Shown here piece after piece: positions 48,926 through 64,000 of a stretch of 64,000 nt of DNA (positions are counted from its first letter, which is position 1; the number at the start of each line of letters is the position of its first letter). The DNA is from Clostridiaceae bacterium M8S5 (GTDB taxonomy: Bacteria; Bacillota; Clostridia; Tissierellales; MCWD3), in the NCBI GenBank assembly GCA_029227815.1, contig CP118523.1:930001-994000 (forward strand), read 5' to 3'. A program made the translations under genes and the position numbers. Below the pieces are notes generated by a model. That model saw only the letters and a program-made list of their open reading frames with translations, was not told the origin of the DNA and ran no database searches.

Positions 48926-50662
48926 ATGATTAAAAAATTTATATCTTATTACAAACCTCATTTAAGGTTGTTTGCAATAGATATGACAGCGGCAACGTTA
49001 ATAGCAGTTATTGACTTGTTTTTCCCAATAATATCAAGAAATATTTTAAATGACTACATACCAAGTGGAAAACTTAGAGCTGTCTATATCTCAGTGGCTG
49101 TACTACTTGTATTATACGTACTCAAAGCCATATTTACTTACGTAATTGATTATTGGGGACATGTTGTTGGTATTAGAATGGAATTTGATATGAGAAGAGA
49201 TTTATTTTCTCACATACAAACATTATCATTTAGCTATTTTGATAATACCAGAACAGGTCATATAATGTCTAGACTAGTAAATGATTTAAGAGAAGTATCT
49301 GAATTAGCACATCACGGACCAGAAGACTTATTTTTATCAGCATTATTGCTAGTAGGTTCATTTTGCGTATTAATTACAATACAGTGGCAACTTACATTAG
49401 CAGTATATGTATTTGTACCTATAATGCTGTGGTTTACTATTAGTAGAAGGAGCAAAATGTCAAAAGCCTTTAAAAATGTTAAAAAACGAGTTGCAATAGT
49501 AAACTCAAATATTGAAAATAGTATTTCAGGTATAAGAGTTGCAAAATCATATACAAACGAAGAGCATGAGTTAGATAAATTTGACAAAGGCAATTATGAG
49601 TTTAAAGAATCTAGAGAAGAAGCTTTTAAATATATGGCAGAATTGACGTCTGGAATGAACTTTTTTATGAGCTTGTTTAGAATCATAGTTATTGGACTTG
49701 GAGGAACCTTGATATATTATAATAAAATGAATTATGGTGACTTAGTAGCATTCTTATTATATATTCAATTTTTCCTACAACCAATTAAGAAGTTGACACA
49801 GTTCACACAGCAATATGAAGCAGGGATGGCAGGATTTGAAAGATTTTATGAGGTTATAAATTTGAAACCAGAAATAAAGAACTCTGATAATCCGGTGGTG
49901 TTAGAAAATGTTAAAGGTGATATCAAATTTGAAAATATTAAATTTTCCTATAATGACAATGAATCAATATTAGCTAATATAAACCTTGATATAAAGAGTG
50001 GAAAAACTTTAGCGTTAGTAGGGCCGTCGGGTGGTGGAAAATCTACAATGTGTCATCTTATACCTAGATTTTATGATGTTAGTGAAGGTAAAATTAGCTT
50101 AGATGGAGTGGATATAAAAGATATCGACTTAAAGGTTTTAAGAAGTAATATTGGACTAGTACAACAAGATGTGTTTTTGTTTTCAGGCACGATAAGAGAA
50201 AATATACTATATGGAAAACCATATGCAACAGATGATGAAATATTAGAAGCTGCTAAGAAAGCAGATATACATGATTATATTAGTTCATTGCCAAATGGCT
50301 ATGATACGTATATAGGAGAAAAAGGTATAAGGCTATCAGGAGGACAGAAACAAAGAATATCTATAGCCAGAGTATTTTTAAAGAATCCACCTATATTAAT
50401 ATTGGATGAAGCTACTTCGGCATTAGACAATGAAACAGAGATTAAGATTCAAAATGCATTAGAAAAGCTAGCAAAAGGAAGAACAACGCTAGTGATAGCA
50501 CATAGATTATCTACAATAAAAAATGCGGATGAGATAGTTGTAATAACTAATGAAGGTATTGTAGAATCTGGTAACCATGAAGAACTAGTACAAAACAAAG
50601 GATTGTATGAGAACTTATACAATCTACAATTTAAAGGATATATACCAGACGAGATAGCTTAA
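48926..50662 (+). CDS. MsbA/LmrA-type ABC exporter half-transporter
   Basis: Fused membrane and ATPase protein of 578 residues. Six membrane helices in the first 310 residues are followed by a nucleotide-binding domain: Walker A GPSGGGKSTMCH near residue 372, signature LSGGQKQRISIARVF, Walker B PILILDEATSALD and the switch histidine AHRLST. All residues for activity are present. GGAGGG precedes the ATG. It stands as a single gene, so it probably works as a homodimer, exporting lipids or drugs. Confidence 0.93.
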   Translation: MIKKFISYYKPHLRLFAIDMTAATLIAVIDLFFPIISRNILNDYIPSGKLRAVYISVAVLLVLYVLKAIFTYVIDYWGHVVGIRMEFDMRRDLFSHIQTLSFSYFDNTRTGHIMSRLVNDLREVSELAHHGPEDLFLSALLLVGSFCVLITIQWQLTLAVYVFVPIMLWFTISRRSKMSKAFKNVKKRVAIVNSNIENSISGIRVAKSYTNEEHELDKFDKGNYEFKESREEAFKYMAELTSGMNFFMSLFRIIVIGLGGTLIYYNKMNYGDLVAFLLYIQFFLQPIKKLTQFTQQYEAGMAGFERFYEVINLKPEIKNSDNPVVLENVKGDIKFENIKFSYNDNESILANINLDIKSGKTLALVGPSGGGKSTMCHLIPRFYDVSEGKISLDGVDIKDIDLKVLRSNIGLVQQDVFLFSGTIRENILYGKPYATDDEILEAAKKADIHDYISSLPNGYDTYIGEKGIRLSGGQKQRISIARVFLKNPPILILDEATSALDNETEIKIQNALEKLAKGRTTLVIAHRLSTIKNADEIVVITNEGIVESGNHEELVQNKGLYENLYNLQFKGYIPDEIA

Positions 50663-59349: not shown

Positions 59350-59473
59350 AAAATCAACTTCCTTTCAAAAACTGTTGCTATACTATAGTATATTTAGTGT
59401 GAAGTTAAAATGTACATGTTATTATATTTATGTGTTATAATAAAGTAATCTAAATTGTTTAGGAGGAATATTC

Positions 59474-60031
59474 ATGAGAGAATCGGCTATGAATCAACTA
59501 CGCAAATATGTGAGTGCAGATAGCCTAATGAAGCATAGCTTAGCAGTAGAAGCTTCAATGAGAGGATATGCAAAAAAATTTGGAGAAGATGTTGAGCGAT
59601 GGGGGGCTTGTGGCCTATTGCATGATATTGACTTTGAAAAACATCCAAAAGAACATCCATTAATAGGGATAGAAATATTAAAAGAATTAGGATATGATGA
59701 CGAATTCATAATGGCAGTAAAAGGGCACTCTGATGATACAAATACACCAAGAGAAACAAAATTAGCAAAGACATTATATGCAGTAGATGAATTATCAAGC
59801 TTTATAATAGCATGTGTATTAGTTAGGCCAACCAAATTTGAGGGATTAAAAATAAAATCCATCAAGAAGAAATTGAAAGACAAAGCATTTGCAAGAGCAG
59901 TTGATAGAGAGCAAATAAAAAGATCAGCAGAGGAATTGGGTGTAGATTTAAACGAACATATACAAACAGTACTAGATGCATTAATGTTGAGAGAAAAAGA
60001 GTTAGAACAAGAAGGTATGAGCTTGATTTAG
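59474..60031 (+). CDS. HD-domain phosphohydrolase-like protein
   Basis: Protein of 185 residues with AGGAGGA before the ATG. The HD metal site is visible: LMKHSLAVE, CGLLHDIDFEKHPKEH and later AVDELSSFI. The family includes nucleotidases and cyclic nucleotide hydrolases. No second domain. It stands alone after a divergent promoter region shared with dps; the substrate is unknown. Confidence 0.88.
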   Translation: MRESAMNQLRKYVSADSLMKHSLAVEASMRGYAKKFGEDVERWGACGLLHDIDFEKHPKEHPLIGIEILKELGYDDEFIMAVKGHSDDTNTPRETKLAKTLYAVDELSSFIIACVLVRPTKFEGLKIKSIKKKLKDKAFARAVDREQIKRSAEELGVDLNEHIQTVLDALMLREKELEQEGMSLI

Positions 60032-60056
60032 TTAATAAATTAAATAAATAATAGTT

Positions 60057-60088
60057 AATCACTGGGCATATAGTATCCAGTGATTTTA
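60057..60088 (+). terminator. Intrinsic terminator of the HD-protein gene
   Basis: AATCACTGG (60057-60065) pairs with CCAGTGATT (60077-60085), then TTTAT. Confidence 0.8.
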
Positions 60089-60101
60089 TATTTCCTAAAA
60101 A

Positions 60102-60130
60102 TTGTATTCATAAGACTAAAATGGTATAAT
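60102..60130 (+). promoter_or_regulatory. Promoter of the cysteine-motif peptide cluster
   Basis: TTGTAT (60102-60107), exactly 17 bases, TATAAT (60125-60130) preceded by the extended -10 TGG. Confidence 0.7.
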
Positions 60131-60162
60131 TTAACTAAAATATAAAAAGGAGATGAAGGTGT

Positions 60163-60288
60163 ATGAAAAAACTATGTAAAAGAGCTTACAGACAAAAAAG
60201 TTCTCTATGTGCAAGTTATTGCTTAGCTTGTTATTGTTTGAATTATCATGATTCAAAGAGCAGTTTATTTCCACCAAAATTTTATTAA
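60163..60288 (+). CDS. Cys-motif peptide 1 (41 aa), RiPP/bacteriocin-precursor-like
   Basis: Begins MKKLCKRAYRQKSSLCASYC and continues LACYC, giving CxxCxC after a basic head; the tail ends LFPPKFY. It is a close paralogue of peptide 4 (60764). The layout of a short Lys/Arg-rich head beginning MKKLxK, a Ser/Thr-Leu pair, then a compact CxCxC-like cluster recalls clostridial bacteriocin-precursor families (CLI_3235-type, from memory). No modifying enzyme is adjacent. A GGAGATGAAGG region precedes the ATG. Confidence 0.6.
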   Translation: MKKLCKRAYRQKSSLCASYCLACYCLNYHDSKSSLFPPKFY

Positions 60289-60318
60289 ATTATTATAAAT
60301 ACAATAAGGAGGTGAGAT

Positions 60319-60450
60319 ATGAAAAGATTAACTAAAAAATACCATAAAAATGTAGAAACATTAGTAATGAATGGTTGTCCTTGTTATTGTAGAATAGTTC
60401 ACGTAGATGATTCAGAGGCGGGTATACGTGATGCGAAATTTGATTGGTAG
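60319..60450 (+). CDS. Cys-motif peptide 2 (43 aa)
   Basis: AAGGAGGTGAG before the ATG, the strongest site in the cluster. Begins MKRLTKKYHKNVETLVMNGC and continues PCYCR, so the cluster is CPCYC; the tail (AGIRDAKFDW) is acidic. The head matches MK(K/R)LxK(K/R) and the T-L pair of the other members. It is the member most like described clostridial precursor peptides. A leader of about 18 residues and a cysteine core are inferred. Confidence 0.6.
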   Translation: MKRLTKKYHKNVETLVMNGCPCYCRIVHVDDSEAGIRDAKFDW

Positions 60451-60475
60451 ATTAAATTAAAAAGGATGTGAAATA

Positions 60476-60604
60476 TTGAGTAAACTCTTTAAAAAGAACA
60501 CTTATTATTCTAATCCATTATTTAATGATTTGTGCGTTTGGTGCATGTGTGTTATGAAGTCAGCTAGAAAAGATAGTGACGTAGTACCTAAGTACCCTAG
60601 TTAG
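60476..60604 (+). CDS. Cys-motif peptide 3 (42 aa)
   Basis: Read from TTG 60476 with AAAGGATGTG upstream. Begins MSKLFKKNTYYSNPLFNDLC and continues VWCMC, again CxxCxC. The tail ends VVPKYPS. It is the most divergent of the four, but the head and the spacing of the cysteine cluster (residues 20-25) are kept. Confidence 0.5.
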   Translation: MSKLFKKNTYYSNPLFNDLCVWCMCVMKSARKDSDVVPKYPS

Positions 60605-60612
60605 CTGAAAAT

Positions 60613-60664
60613 AGAAGGTGTCTCATCAAACTAAGAATAGGTGATGAGGACCTTCTTTTTTGGA
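60613..60664 (+). terminator. Intrinsic terminator after peptides 1-3
   Basis: AGAAGGT plus CTCATCA on the left pair with TGATGAG plus ACCTTCT on the right, with small internal mismatches, followed by T. Confidence 0.85.
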
Positions 60665-60719
60665 ATCATCTAAATGTGTATAATATATAAAATATAATGT
60701 TTCAAATATTGCAAAATAA

Positions 60720-60728
60720 TGGTATAAT
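60720..60728 (+). promoter_or_regulatory. Extended -10 promoter of peptide 4
   Basis: TGGTATAAT (60720-60728) repeats the -10 region of the peptide 1 promoter, including the upstream AA; the -35 (TTTCAA, 60700-60705) is weak. Confidence 0.5.
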
Positions 60729-60763
60729 ATAACTATAAATTTAAAAAAAGGAGGATGATATTA

Positions 60764-60889
60764 ATGAAAAAACTAAATAAAAGAACGCATAGACAAAATA
60801 ATTCCTTAACTGCAAGCTATTGTGCAATGTGTTTTTGTGACAATAAATTTGAGTTTATAAATTATAGATTGCCACCAAGACATATGTAA
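60764..60889 (+). CDS. Cys-motif peptide 4 (41 aa)
   Basis: Begins MKKLNKRTHRQNNSLTASYC and continues AMCFC; tail with RLPPRHM. It aligns without gaps over all 41 residues with peptide 1: MKKLxKRxxRQxxSLxASYC, then xxCxC, and PP near the end. AAGGAGGATG precedes the ATG. It has its own promoter after a terminator, so it can be expressed independently of peptides 1-3. Confidence 0.6.
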   Translation: MKKLNKRTHRQNNSLTASYCAMCFCDNKFEFINYRLPPRHM

Positions 60890-60954
60890 AAGTTACAAGA
60901 ACAAAGTTTAGTAATAAAGATAGCTTTGTGTATTATTAAAAATTATAGACAGTA

Positions 60955-61489
60955 AGAGACCATTGTTTTAGATGGTCCAATTTCTGCGACCATGTTAAAA
61001 TTTCCGTTGCTCACTTACCTCTAAGTAAGCTGTGCTACTCAATTTTAACACGCCTTGAAATTGAACTTTTACTAAAGTCTGCTATCTTGATGACTTTGTA
61101 ATCAACCTAAGAGACCATCGTTTTAGATGGTCTCTCAGACCGTAGACAAAATCCCAATTTCTGCGTTGTAGTTAAAATTTCCGTTGCTCACTTACCTCTA
61201 AGTAAGCTGTGCTACTCAATTTTAACACGCCTTGAAATTGAACTCTTACTACAGTCTGATATCTTGATGACTTTGTCATCAACCTAAGAGACCATCATTT
61301 TAGATGGTCTCTCAGACTGTAGACAAAAGCCCAATTTCTGCGTTGTTGTTAAAATTTCCGTTGCTCACTTACCTCTAAGTAAGCTGTGCTACTCAATTTT
61401 AACACGCCTTGAAATTGAACTTTTACTAAAGTCTGCTATCTTGATGACTTTGTCATCAACCTAAGAGACCATCATTTTAGATGGTCTCT
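60955..61489 (+). repeat. 177-bp-type structured repeat, locus C: three tandem copies
   Basis: Four hairpins with arms AGAGACCATC/GATGGTCTCT (the first imperfect) start at 60955, 61110, 61287 and 61464 and separate three cores. The last two intervals are exactly 177 bases; the first copy lost 22 bases at its left end. Each full core starts CAGAC(T/C)GTAGACAAAA and folds on itself: CAGACTGTAG with CTACAGTCTG, CAATTTC with GAAATTG, GTTAAAATT with AATTTTAAC, CTTAC with GTAAG, then a GATGAC/GTCATC hairpin. It follows the peptide 4 gene. Confidence 0.92.
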
Positions 61490-61505
61490 TATCATTTTAT
61501 TTAAC

Positions 61506-61534
61506 TTGAATACATGAGTTAAATATGATATACT
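61506..61534 (+). promoter_or_regulatory. Promoter of the queuosine operon
   Basis: TTGAAT (61506-61511), exactly 17 bases, TATACT (61529-61534). Transcription would start about 15 bases before the riboswitch. Confidence 0.7.
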
Positions 61535-61555
61535 ACATTACTGTAAAACAGAATA

Positions 61556-61593
61556 GACAGTTCGTAAACCTCCTGTCGTGAAACAAAACTAGG
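61556..61593 (+). promoter_or_regulatory. preQ1-I riboswitch
   Basis: P1 GACAG (61556-61560) with CTGTC (61573-61577), a 12-base loop TTCGTAAACCTC, and the A-rich tail GTGAAACAAAACTAGG (61578-61593). Loop CCT can pair with tail AGG to form the pseudoknot. This matches the known preQ1 class I layout (P1, TTC-start loop, A-rich tail ending ACTA). It lies between a promoter and a terminator and upstream of queD and queE, so it fits transcriptional control by preQ1. Confidence 0.85.
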
Positions 61594-61660
61594 CCGTTAC
61601 TTATATCTGCAATATATAATATATTTTATTGTATTATTTTTGATGTAAGGATAAATTTAC

Positions 61661-61681
61661 GGGCTATTATGCCCTTTTTTT
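61661..61681 (+). terminator. Terminator controlled by the preQ1 riboswitch
   Basis: GGGC, loop TATTAT, GCCC, then seven T. Lies 40 bases before the first gene of the operon. The riboswitch tail TAGGCC (61590-61595) may compete for GGGCTA, but the pairing has one mismatch. Confidence 0.8.
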
Positions 61682-61721
61682 GTGCAAAATAATATACAGA
61701 GGTTACTAAGGAGGAAGTATT

Positions 61722-62720
61722 ATGAAAAAAATAGGGATTACAACTACTGTACCTATAGAAGTATTATTAGCTGAAGATTACAAAGTTATTGATTTAAATA
61801 ATGAATTTATTACTTCAGATGATTATCATCATTATATAGATATTGCAGAGAAAGATGGGTTTCCTAAAAGTCTTTGTGCTTGGATAAAGGGAATATATGG
61901 AGTTTGTATAGAAAAAGGGATTAAAGAAATAGTAGGAGTAATAGGTGGAGATTGTTCCAATACCAAATCACTGGTAGAGGTTCTTAAAAATAAGGGAATA
62001 AAAATATATCCATTCTCATATCCGACAAATAGAAGATTAAGTCTAGTCAAAAACGAGATAGATAACTTCACCAAACTATTTGGGGAAAATTCAAAAAAGA
62101 TAGAAGAAATACGTAAAGAACTAGGCGAAATAAGAGATTTAGCAATTGATATAGATAAACTAACATATATAGATAATAAAGCAACAGGCTTTGAAAATCA
62201 TTTGTATCAAATCAGCTTAAGTGATTTTAATGGTGATATCTTAGAATTTAAAAAAGATATCATAAAGAAAAGAGAAGAAATAGAAAATAGAAAACCTCTA
62301 AAGCAAAATTTGAGATTAGCATATATAGGGGTACCACCAATGACAGCGGATATATATGATTTTTTAGAAACATTAGACGCAAGAGTAGTTTATAATGAGG
62401 TGCAAAGAGAGTTTGCTTTTCCAAGGCACCACAAAGCTAAAAATATATATGAACAATATTATGATTATACCTATCCTTATGATGTGATGTTTAGGTTAGA
62501 AGAGATCAAAAAGCAAATTACACATAGAAAAATAGATGCAGTCATACATTATACCCAAAGCTTTTGTCATAAGGCAATAGAGCATATAGTTATAAACAAA
62601 GAGTTAGATGTACCAGTTTTAAATATAGAAGGTGACAAACTCAACGAGTTAGATGCTAGAACAAAACTCAGATTAGAGGCGTTTACAGACATGCTCCTAG
62701 ATAGAAAAGGGGTGTATTGA
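61722..62720 (+). CDS. 2-hydroxyacyl-CoA dehydratase (HgdB/YjiM)-like iron-sulfur protein
   Basis: Protein of 332 residues, AAGGAGGAAG before the ATG. It belongs to the D-component class of 2-hydroxyacyl-CoA dehydratases and related reductases, which hold a [4Fe-4S] cluster reduced by an ATP-driven activase. Candidate ligands are the Cys of KSLCAWIKG, the Cys of GGDCSNT and the Cys of TQSFCHKAIEHI. Its partner activase follows with a 1-base overlap. Placement as first gene of a preQ1-riboswitch operon with queD and queE suggests a role in queuosine metabolism. Substrate unproven. Confidence 0.82.
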   Translation: MKKIGITTTVPIEVLLAEDYKVIDLNNEFITSDDYHHYIDIAEKDGFPKSLCAWIKGIYGVCIEKGIKEIVGVIGGDCSNTKSLVEVLKNKGIKIYPFSYPTNRRLSLVKNEIDNFTKLFGENSKKIEEIRKELGEIRDLAIDIDKLTYIDNKATGFENHLYQISLSDFNGDILEFKKDIIKKREEIENRKPLKQNLRLAYIGVPPMTADIYDFLETLDARVVYNEVQREFAFPRHHKAKNIYEQYYDYTYPYDVMFRLEEIKKQITHRKIDAVIHYTQSFCHKAIEHIVINKELDVPVLNIEGDKLNELDARTKLRLEAFTDMLLDRKGVY

Positions 62721-63490
62721 TGAAGTGTTTAGGAATAGATTTAGGCAGTAGAGAAGTAAAGATAGTTGCGATGAAAGACTTAGAGATTGTTTCCAAAGAG
62801 AAAATAAGCACTGTTTCGTTTTACAAGAACTATTGTGGTTATAGAGACGGTAAAATAGTAGTTGATTTAAATAAACTTGGATGCTTGGATGTAGACAAAG
62901 CTGTATCAACAGGCTATGGAAGAAACAATACTAATTTAAAAGAATTTAAAGCAATCAATGAAGTTAAAGCCCATGTGTATGGAGCTTTGTATCAAACGAG
63001 TATCAAAGATTTTACGTTGCTTGATGTAGGTGGACAGGATGTAAAGGCTGTAAAGGTTGAAAAAGGGATAATAACCGACTTACAATTAAATGACAAATGT
63101 GCAGCTTCATGTGGTAGATATCTAGAGAATATGGCAAATGTGTTAGAGATAGAGTTAGATGATATGGGAGAGTATTATAAAGATCCAGTAAATCTTAACT
63201 CAACTTGTGCAGTTTTTTCAGAGTCAGAATTGATTGGGAAGATAGCAGAAGGCATTGGTATGGACAGATTATGTGCAGGAGTAAATTACTCGCTGTATAA
63301 GAGAATATTGCCCATGCTTTCAAATTTAAACAACTCTATTTTAATAATGGCGGGTGGAGCTTCAAAGAATAAAGCTCTTGTAGAGTATTTAAAAAAAGAT
63401 TTCAAAGAAGTTGTAGTTTTAAAAGAAAATCAGTTTAATGGAGCAATAGGATGTTGTTATTATGCTCATAAATTTCTAAGGGAGAGATAG
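62720..63490 (+). CDS. BadF/BcrA-type ATP-dependent activase
   Basis: Acyl-CoA dehydratase activase of 256 residues from ATG 62720, overlapping the preceding stop by 1 base. ASKHA fold motifs: GIDLGSREVKIV, LLDVGGQDVKAV and IMAGGASKN. The cluster cysteines are in NDKCAASCGRYLENMA and STCAVFSESE. It hydrolyses ATP to drive single low-potential electrons into the partner dehydratase-like protein. All expected residues are present. Confidence 0.92.
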   Translation: MKCLGIDLGSREVKIVAMKDLEIVSKEKISTVSFYKNYCGYRDGKIVVDLNKLGCLDVDKAVSTGYGRNNTNLKEFKAINEVKAHVYGALYQTSIKDFTLLDVGGQDVKAVKVEKGIITDLQLNDKCAASCGRYLENMANVLEIELDDMGEYYKDPVNLNSTCAVFSESELIGKIAEGIGMDRLCAGVNYSLYKRILPMLSNLNNSILIMAGGASKNKALVEYLKKDFKEVVVLKENQFNGAIGCCYYAHKFLRER

Positions 63491-63492
63491 AT

Positions 63493-63912
63493 ATGTATGG
63501 ATTAAAAATTCAGCACAGCTTTGATAGTGCACATTTTTTAAAAGATTATTATGGGAAGTGTGCAAATATTCATGGTCATAGATGGAACGTAGAAGTGTTT
63601 ATAAAAAGTGAAACACTTAATAGAGATGGAGAAAAAAGAGGTATGATTGTAGACTTTGGTGATCTAAAAAGAGATGTTAAAGAAGTATTAGATTTCTATG
63701 ATCATAGTTTAATAATAGAAAAAGACAGCCTAAAGCCAAAAACAAAAGAGTGTTTACTTGATGAAGGTTTTAGAATTTTAGAAGTAGATTTTAGACCAAC
63801 AGCAGAGTGTTTTAGCGAATTTTTCTACAAAGCTGTTGAAAGTCGTGGTTATGATGTAGAAAAGGTGATTGTGTATGAAACTCCAAATAACTGTGCATTA
63901 TATTATGAATAG
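63493..63912 (+). CDS. queD: 6-carboxy-5,6,7,8-tetrahydropterin synthase
   Basis: Queuosine/preQ0 pathway enzyme of 139 residues. Zinc ligands are His in FDSAHFL and the two His in NIHGHRWNV; the catalytic Cys is in GKCANIHGH; the catalytic pair includes YDHSLII, and the pterin anchor is VYETPNNCA. AGGGAGAG precedes the ATG 2 bases after the activase gene. Regulation by the preQ1 riboswitch upstream fits this role. Confidence 0.95.
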   Translation: MYGLKIQHSFDSAHFLKDYYGKCANIHGHRWNVEVFIKSETLNRDGEKRGMIVDFGDLKRDVKEVLDFYDHSLIIEKDSLKPKTKECLLDEGFRILEVDFRPTAECFSEFFYKAVESRGYDVEKVIVYETPNNCALYYE

Positions 63913-63923
63913 AGGTGCAAATT

Positions 63924-64000
63924 GTGTATAAAATAGCTGAAAAATTTACTAGCATAAATGGAGAAGGAAGATTGTGTGGACAGCTAGCCGTATTTATAAG
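63924..64000 (+). CDS. queE: 7-carboxy-7-deazaguanine synthase, 5' end only
   Basis: GTG 63924 with GAGGTG upstream opens a frame running to the window end: YKIAEKFTSINGEGRLCGQL then AVFI. This is the diagnostic QueE N-terminus (INGEGxxxGxxAVFI) just before the radical SAM cysteines, which lie outside the window. It continues the queuosine operon. Confidence 0.88.
   Translation, partial: MYKIAEKFTSINGEGRLCGQLAVFI

Follow-up and report, generated by a model that had tools for sequence, protein, structure and literature searches.

Short Cysteine-Cluster Peptides of Clostridiaceae bacterium M8S5: One Outpost of a Dispersed Gene Family with a CcpM-Precursor-Type Leader

Introduction

Gene clusters encoding CcpM are already known as predicted sactipeptide clusters (PMC4573289, PMC7343975). 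SacP23 of Paenibacillus polymyxa is active against Gram-positive bacteria, although its thioethers are assumed and not shown, and its ccpM cluster contains an ECF sigma factor gene (PMC10731318). Known CcpM/TIGR04065 clusters carry one longer precursor (57–69 aa in the loci examined) adjoining the maturase. Prochlorosins and synechococsins are made from dispersed precursors by one tolerant enzyme (29 ProcA, 79–83 SyncA; PMC10783134). SCIFF is a single conserved peptide adjoining its maturase. In the open-access literature that was searched (subscription papers lay outside the scope), no dispersed CcpM precursor family of a size comparable to the one presented here was found.

Four short ORFs lie in a 64,000-nucleotide stretch of the Clostridiaceae bacterium M8S5 chromosome (positions 930,001–994,000, referred to as the window), and together they form a single outpost of a large family that is dispersed over the chromosome. 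As in CcpM/TIGR04065 systems such as SacP23, the peptides have an MKKLxKK leader followed by a Cys-rich core, and CcpM and the partners TIGR04066, TIGR04069 and a subtilase are encoded in the same genome; an ECF-like promoter at many family members recalls the ECF sigma factor gene of the SacP23 cluster. Unlike the known CcpM/TIGR04065 clusters, the family comprises around 55 shorter precursors, mostly far from any maturase, and its window members miss the TIGR04065 cut-off. It shares a conserved leader, variable cores and genome-wide scatter with ProcA and SyncA (29 to 83 precursors per genome, with the enzymes ProcM and SyncM), and with around 55 genes at around 31 places it has the features of a dispersed library. 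For the few enzymes acting in trans that characterize prochlorosin-type systems, the support is only indirect, i.e., the shared promoter and the ccpM linkage of some members. Whereas prochlorosins have a Nif11 type leader and lanthionines, this family has a radical-SAM enzyme, cysteines at a fixed position and a variable tail, with modification in trans not shown. CcpM is a radical-SAM/SPASM relative of SCIFF/CteB and ranthipeptide (PapB) maturases, and its match to the solved structure 5WGG includes the N-terminal region; unlike SCIFF, the family is a variable multigene set. The lachnocin, RumMC and Clo7bot radical-SAM peptide systems also use related maturases, but their precursors belong to other families, and at most 2 of 66 members weakly match the lachnocin model.

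The Four Peptide Genes of the Window

The short-ORF search of the window, which combined a ribosome binding site with the head M[KRS]x[LIM]x[KR] and the cluster C-x(1,2)-C-x-C, returned exactly the four ORFs listed in Table 1. The same pattern did not occur in any of 1007 dinucleotide-preserving shuffles of the window, which rules out chance ORFs. The four ORFs are real. Profile HMMs of the family recovered peptide 1 (HMM A1, 1.5e-12, with peptide 1 as part of the query; HMM A2, 1.5e-8) and peptide 3 (HMM A2, 4e-9, with peptide 3 as part of the query). No known family was matched when the window peptides were searched against Pfam, and the Rfam search of 59350–64000 gave no match. All four ribosome binding sites are purine-rich. 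For peptide 4, 60764 is a better start than the ATG at 60755, because the latter overlaps the ribosome binding site.

Table 1. Coordinates of the peptide genes and their predicted signals in the window, with a ccpM-linked relative from elsewhere in the genome.
Feature	Position	Strand	Details
Extended -10 promoter (predicted), peptides 1–3	60121..60137	+	ATGGTATAATTTAACTA; one of two window copies
Peptide 1	60163..60288	+	41 aa, MKKLCKRAYRQKSSLCASYCLACYCLNYHDSKSSLFPPKFY; ribosome binding site AAGGAGATGAAGG
Peptide 2	60319..60450	+	43 aa, MKRLTKKYHKNVETLVMNGCPCYCRIVHVDDSEAGIRDAKFDW; ribosome binding site AAGGAGGTGA
Peptide 3	60476..60604	+	42 aa, MSKLFKKNTYYSNPLFNDLCVWCMCVMKSARKDSDVVPKYPS; TTG start; ribosome binding site AAAAGGATGTG
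Probable intrinsic terminator, between peptides 3 and 4	60612..60660	+	strong hairpin, then TTTTTT
Extended -10 promoter (predicted), peptide 4	60719..60735	+	ATGGTATAATATAACTA; TTCAAA 16 bp upstream of TATAAT
Peptide 4	60764..60889	+	41 aa, MKKLNKRTHRQNNSLTASYCAMCFCDNKFEFINYRLPPRHM; ribosome binding site AAAGGAGGATGATATTA
ccpM-linked family peptide (MKKLKKS type)	730-kb locus, L117:8636		sequence starts MKKLKKSLKGEY

Within the window, the sequence ATGGTATAATnTAACTA has just two occurrences, at 60121 and at 60719; two sigma-A-type promoters are inferred for the cluster from the sequence alone. The hairpin with its T-run (computed fold of 60605–60665, -24.4 kcal/mol) parts peptides 1–3 from peptide 4. 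Across residues 1–39, peptides 1 and 4 share 49% identity, and their DNA is a diverged duplication in which promoter, ribosome binding site and leader are alike and the likeness fades at the cysteines. The cysteine cluster is CxCxC in peptide 2 (CPCYC) and CxxCxC in peptides 1, 3 and 4. The initial annotation had described four ORFs of 41–43 residues with good ribosome binding sites and two near-identical extended -10 promoters, all of which held. Its claim that peptides 1 and 4 align over their full length corresponds to the identity given above; the cysteine clusters it quoted held as letters, but their common CxxCxC label had to be corrected to C-x(1,2)-C-x-C.

No maturase, protease or exporter of the peptide family is linked to the window cluster. 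Queuosine genes come after it, and a further family group at 996 kb lies just past them. The genes flanking the cluster were found in the sister species (G001) with 85% and 71% identity, each at a contig end beside the same repeat; because both stand at contig ends, the presence or absence of the cluster in that species cannot be read. Between the cluster and the next gene there is a tandem array (60994–61489) in which a 177-bp unit is repeated 2.8 times with 96% matches, and unrelated repeats occupy the corresponding gap in the sister species. Further downstream, upstream of the HGD-D/activase/queD genes, lies a conserved non-coding stretch (61520–61601; 82 bp, 88% identity to the sister species) that matched nothing in Rfam at the gathering threshold.

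A Dispersed and Hypervariable Family

Searching the genome with TIGR04065 and peptide 2 revealed similar clustered short ORFs. The HMM built from 17 family peptides gave 22 further places at E<=0.0075, and a second profile, from 45 family peptides, gave 47 places at E<1e-4, the majority of which had been rows of the query. In total, the family comprises around 55 short genes at around 31 places of the 4.68-Mb chromosome (a single contig), standing between ordinary genes. The census rests on HMM, pattern, regional and promoter-guided scans and is a lower bound. At least 22 short members are present in the sister species. A single-peptide search across 60 relatives found nothing outside the source genome, the family being reached by profile searches only. 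In another 247 genomes of the order, ccpM carriers included, profile A2 had no match at E<=1e-4, and profile A3 had none in another 390 genomes of the class; hence, with some 600 other genomes of order and class searched, the expansion is so far restricted to one genus.

The anatomy of the peptides was analysed in 75 members from both species. All begin with the basic MKKLxKK head, carry their cysteine cluster around residue 20 and end in an acidic tail that is hypervariable. The around 55 precursors of the source genome are around 40–56 aa long and mostly have three cysteines. The head is fixed at K2, L4 and K6 (identity 0.87, 0.90 and 0.85, respectively) and is followed by T/S at 12 and I/L/T at 13, whereas identity in the tail is 0.06–0.12, near background. 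The first cysteine is residue 20 in 42 of the 75, and CxCxC is the commonest form of the cluster (50/75). The charge changes from +4.4 in the leader to -1.4 in the tail. A constant leader attached to a variable product is the usual layout of RiPP precursors, which is an inference from the sequences and no more. Paralogue pairs show 0.34 non-synonymous versus 0.67 synonymous changes per site (pooled pN/pS near 0.5), a ratio biased downward since the pairs were picked by protein identity.

Some copies deviate from this picture. One carries an internal stop (2084361), and two (L038:1946, L058:2433) apparently use ATT as their start codon, downstream of good ribosome binding sites. A 112-aa ORF with a C-terminal CPCPCPCES adjoins a two-peptide cluster (L018:1007-1345).

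Relationship to CcpM-Linked Precursors

No window peptide meets the curated TIGR04065 (NCBIfam) cut-off of 26 bits: peptide 4 scores 16.4 bits (E 0.0075), peptide 2 scores 12.1 bits (E 0.17), and peptides 1 and 3 are not matched by this model. Across the family, 13 of 66 members match it at E<=0.1, the best at 1.6e-5, while each of the other NCBIfam models matches at most 2 of 66. Profile-profile comparison (hhalign) of the family with seven CcpM-linked precursors gave a score of 35. None of 100 full column shuffles exceeded 14, and none of 60 in which the first nine columns were kept exceeded 29. The head of the family is homologous to the leader of clostridial TIGR04065 (CLI_3235) bacteriocin precursors. 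Two other affiliations were considered and rejected: a phage origin, as no PHROGs family matched more than one of the 66 members, and known defence proteins, for which PADLOC gave only generic viperin models on the radical-SAM domain.

The genome encodes three CcpM proteins (TIGR04068, 545–615 bits versus a cut-off of 500), so the maturase of a CcpM RiPP system is present; the sister species has two above the cut-off and a weaker third. NF038170, NF035951 and TIGR04334 also match CcpM, below cut-off. The best solved match of the 730-kb CcpM, 5WGG/5WHY, which we take to be CteB, the SCIFF thioether maturase with a leader-binding domain, aligns over residues 6–430 with the N-terminal region included. 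A CcpM-like gene at E<=1e-100 occurs in 11 of 249 genomes of the order, and among named relatives the ccpM locus was found only in MAG SKW182 and at one remote locus.

Family peptides adjoin ccpM at several of these loci. At 729–732 kb (L117), four lie between PTS genes (ptsI) and ccpM, and 3' of ccpM follow TIGR04066, TIGR04069 and a QhpE-like S8 peptidase; no dedicated exporter is found at this locus. At the syntenic place upstream of ccpM in the sister species (L119) there are ten, and the CcpM proteins of these two loci are 79% identical and form a separate branch. The 3420-kb locus (L011) has three family peptides next to TIGR04069, TIGR04066, ccpM and a bona fide TIGR04065 precursor that scores 34 bits. 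Downstream of the sister-species ccpM locus, two SkfB/AlbA-like radical-SAM genes (around 415 aa) are located at L119:14180-17358. The neighbourhood of ccpM, TIGR04066, TIGR04069 and subtilase is thus absent at the window cluster but present for other members at 729–730 kb, at 3420 kb and in the sister species. Since these other members adjoin ccpM, the window peptides count as outlying members of a ccpM-neighbour family.

These results bear on the remaining claims of the initial annotation. The proposed ribosomal peptide family like clostridial TIGR04065 bacteriocin precursors is supported by the 13 matches, the profile-profile score and the ccpM linkage, and the suggested check against the TIGR04065 model gave sub-threshold matches for peptides 2 and 4 and homology across the family. 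The suggested search for orphan modifying radical SAM genes elsewhere in the genome yielded the three CcpM genes, and the absence of a modifying enzyme or dedicated exporter beside the cluster held. The peptides had been called perhaps modified or metal-binding; neither is shown. Both candidate partners that had been named within the window failed: the ABC exporter at 48926–50662 is closest to MsbA models and only a generic relative (25–33% identity) of CcpM-linked exporters, and nothing ties the CPBP protease to the peptides.

A Common ECF-Like Promoter

The motif GGAAC-N18-ATC is present in 19 of 77 upstream regions versus 0.26 expected, and other spacings gave 0 to 2. Genome-wide, the pattern KGGAACAN17ATCW has 37 sites versus 10 for its reversed form; sites within long ORFs look chance-like, and most of the others precede family genes. 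Three sites fall within the ccpM array of the source genome, and the ccpM array of the sister species has the motif too. At the level of the motif, many dispersed members and the ccpM array thus have a common promoter. Its assignment to the ECF type is inferred from its form, and the sigma factor is unidentified. The motif is absent upstream of the window cluster, and therefore co-regulation of this cluster with ccpM is not shown.

The same motif precedes several other genes. At 4660718 (L172:1218-2725) it stands before the gene of a 35-aa peptide, MNTLSFGIIKANNPVGALGNNCNGCNGCLSEPTLR, and a radical-SAM gene comes next; the pair may represent another RiPP-like system, of a different kind, within this regulon. 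At 2647093 (L162, - strand) it precedes a 468-aa ORF, by eye an NRPS condensation-type protein, and at 1654367 a 206-aa secreted-looking protein.

Proposed Function and Alternative Explanations

The window ORFs are likely to be CcpM-type RiPP precursors modified in trans by CcpM, although their modification, export and activity have not been shown. Each gene would be transcribed from its own promoter, of the sigma-A type at the window and of the ECF type GGAAC-N18-ATC for many other members as well as the ccpM array. Acting in trans, a CcpM radical-SAM/SPASM enzyme from the 730-kb and/or the 3422-kb locus would bind the leader, i.e., MKKLxKK and the T/S-I/L patch at residues 12–13, through its N-terminal recognition region. 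CcpM would then link the CxCxC cysteines to residues close by, probably through thioether bonds. The leader would be cut off by the subtilase encoded at the ccpM locus, and the product, different for each gene, may be released as an antibacterial or signalling peptide. The gene family, the homology of its leader, the ccpM linkage of sister genes in two species and the promoter common to dispersed members and the ccpM array are established; trans action on the window peptides, the chemistry, processing, export and biological role are inferred. Against this reading stand the sub-threshold TIGR04065 scores of the window peptides, the lack of a linked maturase, protease or exporter and of the ECF-like motif at the window cluster, the contig ends that hide any orthologue of the cluster in the sister species, the missing dedicated exporter at the 730-kb ccpM locus, and the absence of expression or mass data.

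Compact CxC/CxxC clusters are frequent metal ligands in general, and the peptides could be unmodified metal-binding or redox microproteins whose CxCxC serves as an intracellular ligand of Zn, Cu or an Fe-S cluster, the likeness to CcpM leaders being incidental. The lack of a modifying enzyme beside the window cluster and of a dedicated exporter at the 730-kb ccpM locus would agree with this. We nevertheless consider it unlikely: family genes lie directly upstream of ccpM in two species and have a promoter in common with the ccpM array, the resemblance of the leader to CcpM precursors is well above that of shuffles, and the tails of paralogues vary freely, unlike a conserved metal-handling protein. 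Even less probable is that most dispersed copies, those in the window included, are degenerate remnants, i.e., old and no longer processed duplicates of ccpM-linked precursors. The internal stop, the two ATT starts and the missing ECF-like promoter at the window copies point in this direction. However, frame, strong ribosome binding site, leader and cysteines are intact in nearly all copies, non-synonymous changes are around half of synonymous ones per site (with the bias in pair choice noted above), and both window promoters have been kept between duplicates with differing tails.

The precursors might also be modified by another radical-SAM protein of the genus. Candidates exist in the radical-SAM gene that follows a different CxxC peptide at 4660718 behind the same ECF-like promoter, and in the two SkfB/AlbA-like genes near the sister-species ccpM. 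This explanation also seems improbable, as the family peptides adjoin ccpM and not those genes, and the 4660718 peptide has no MKKL leader.

Significance

The preferred reading, modification by CcpM in trans, can be extended to a bolder one, for which we see the chances as balanced: a single promiscuous CcpM (730 kb) with one or two paralogues would modify more than 50 hypervariable peptides encoded chromosome-wide, many of which an ECF-type sigma factor would activate jointly. Taken as a whole, such a system may, with no better confidence, be a radical-SAM counterpart of the prochlorosin system, limited to one small genus.

Precursor searches confined to maturase neighbourhoods, and gene callers that skip ORFs below 50 codons, miss most of a system of this kind. 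If CcpM accepts all the tails, it would be a radical-SAM enzyme from nature that is guided by a leader, tolerates varied substrates and offers more than 50 native ones for comparison. It would then be useful for cross-linked peptide libraries and for learning CcpM chemistry, which is worth learning because the thioethers of this class are undemonstrated (PMC10731318 expects but does not show them). Under the preferred reading, the family probably supplies a radical-SAM enzyme encoded elsewhere with peptides that have their handle in common but differ widely in their tails, so that a single cell would own a whole library of modified products.
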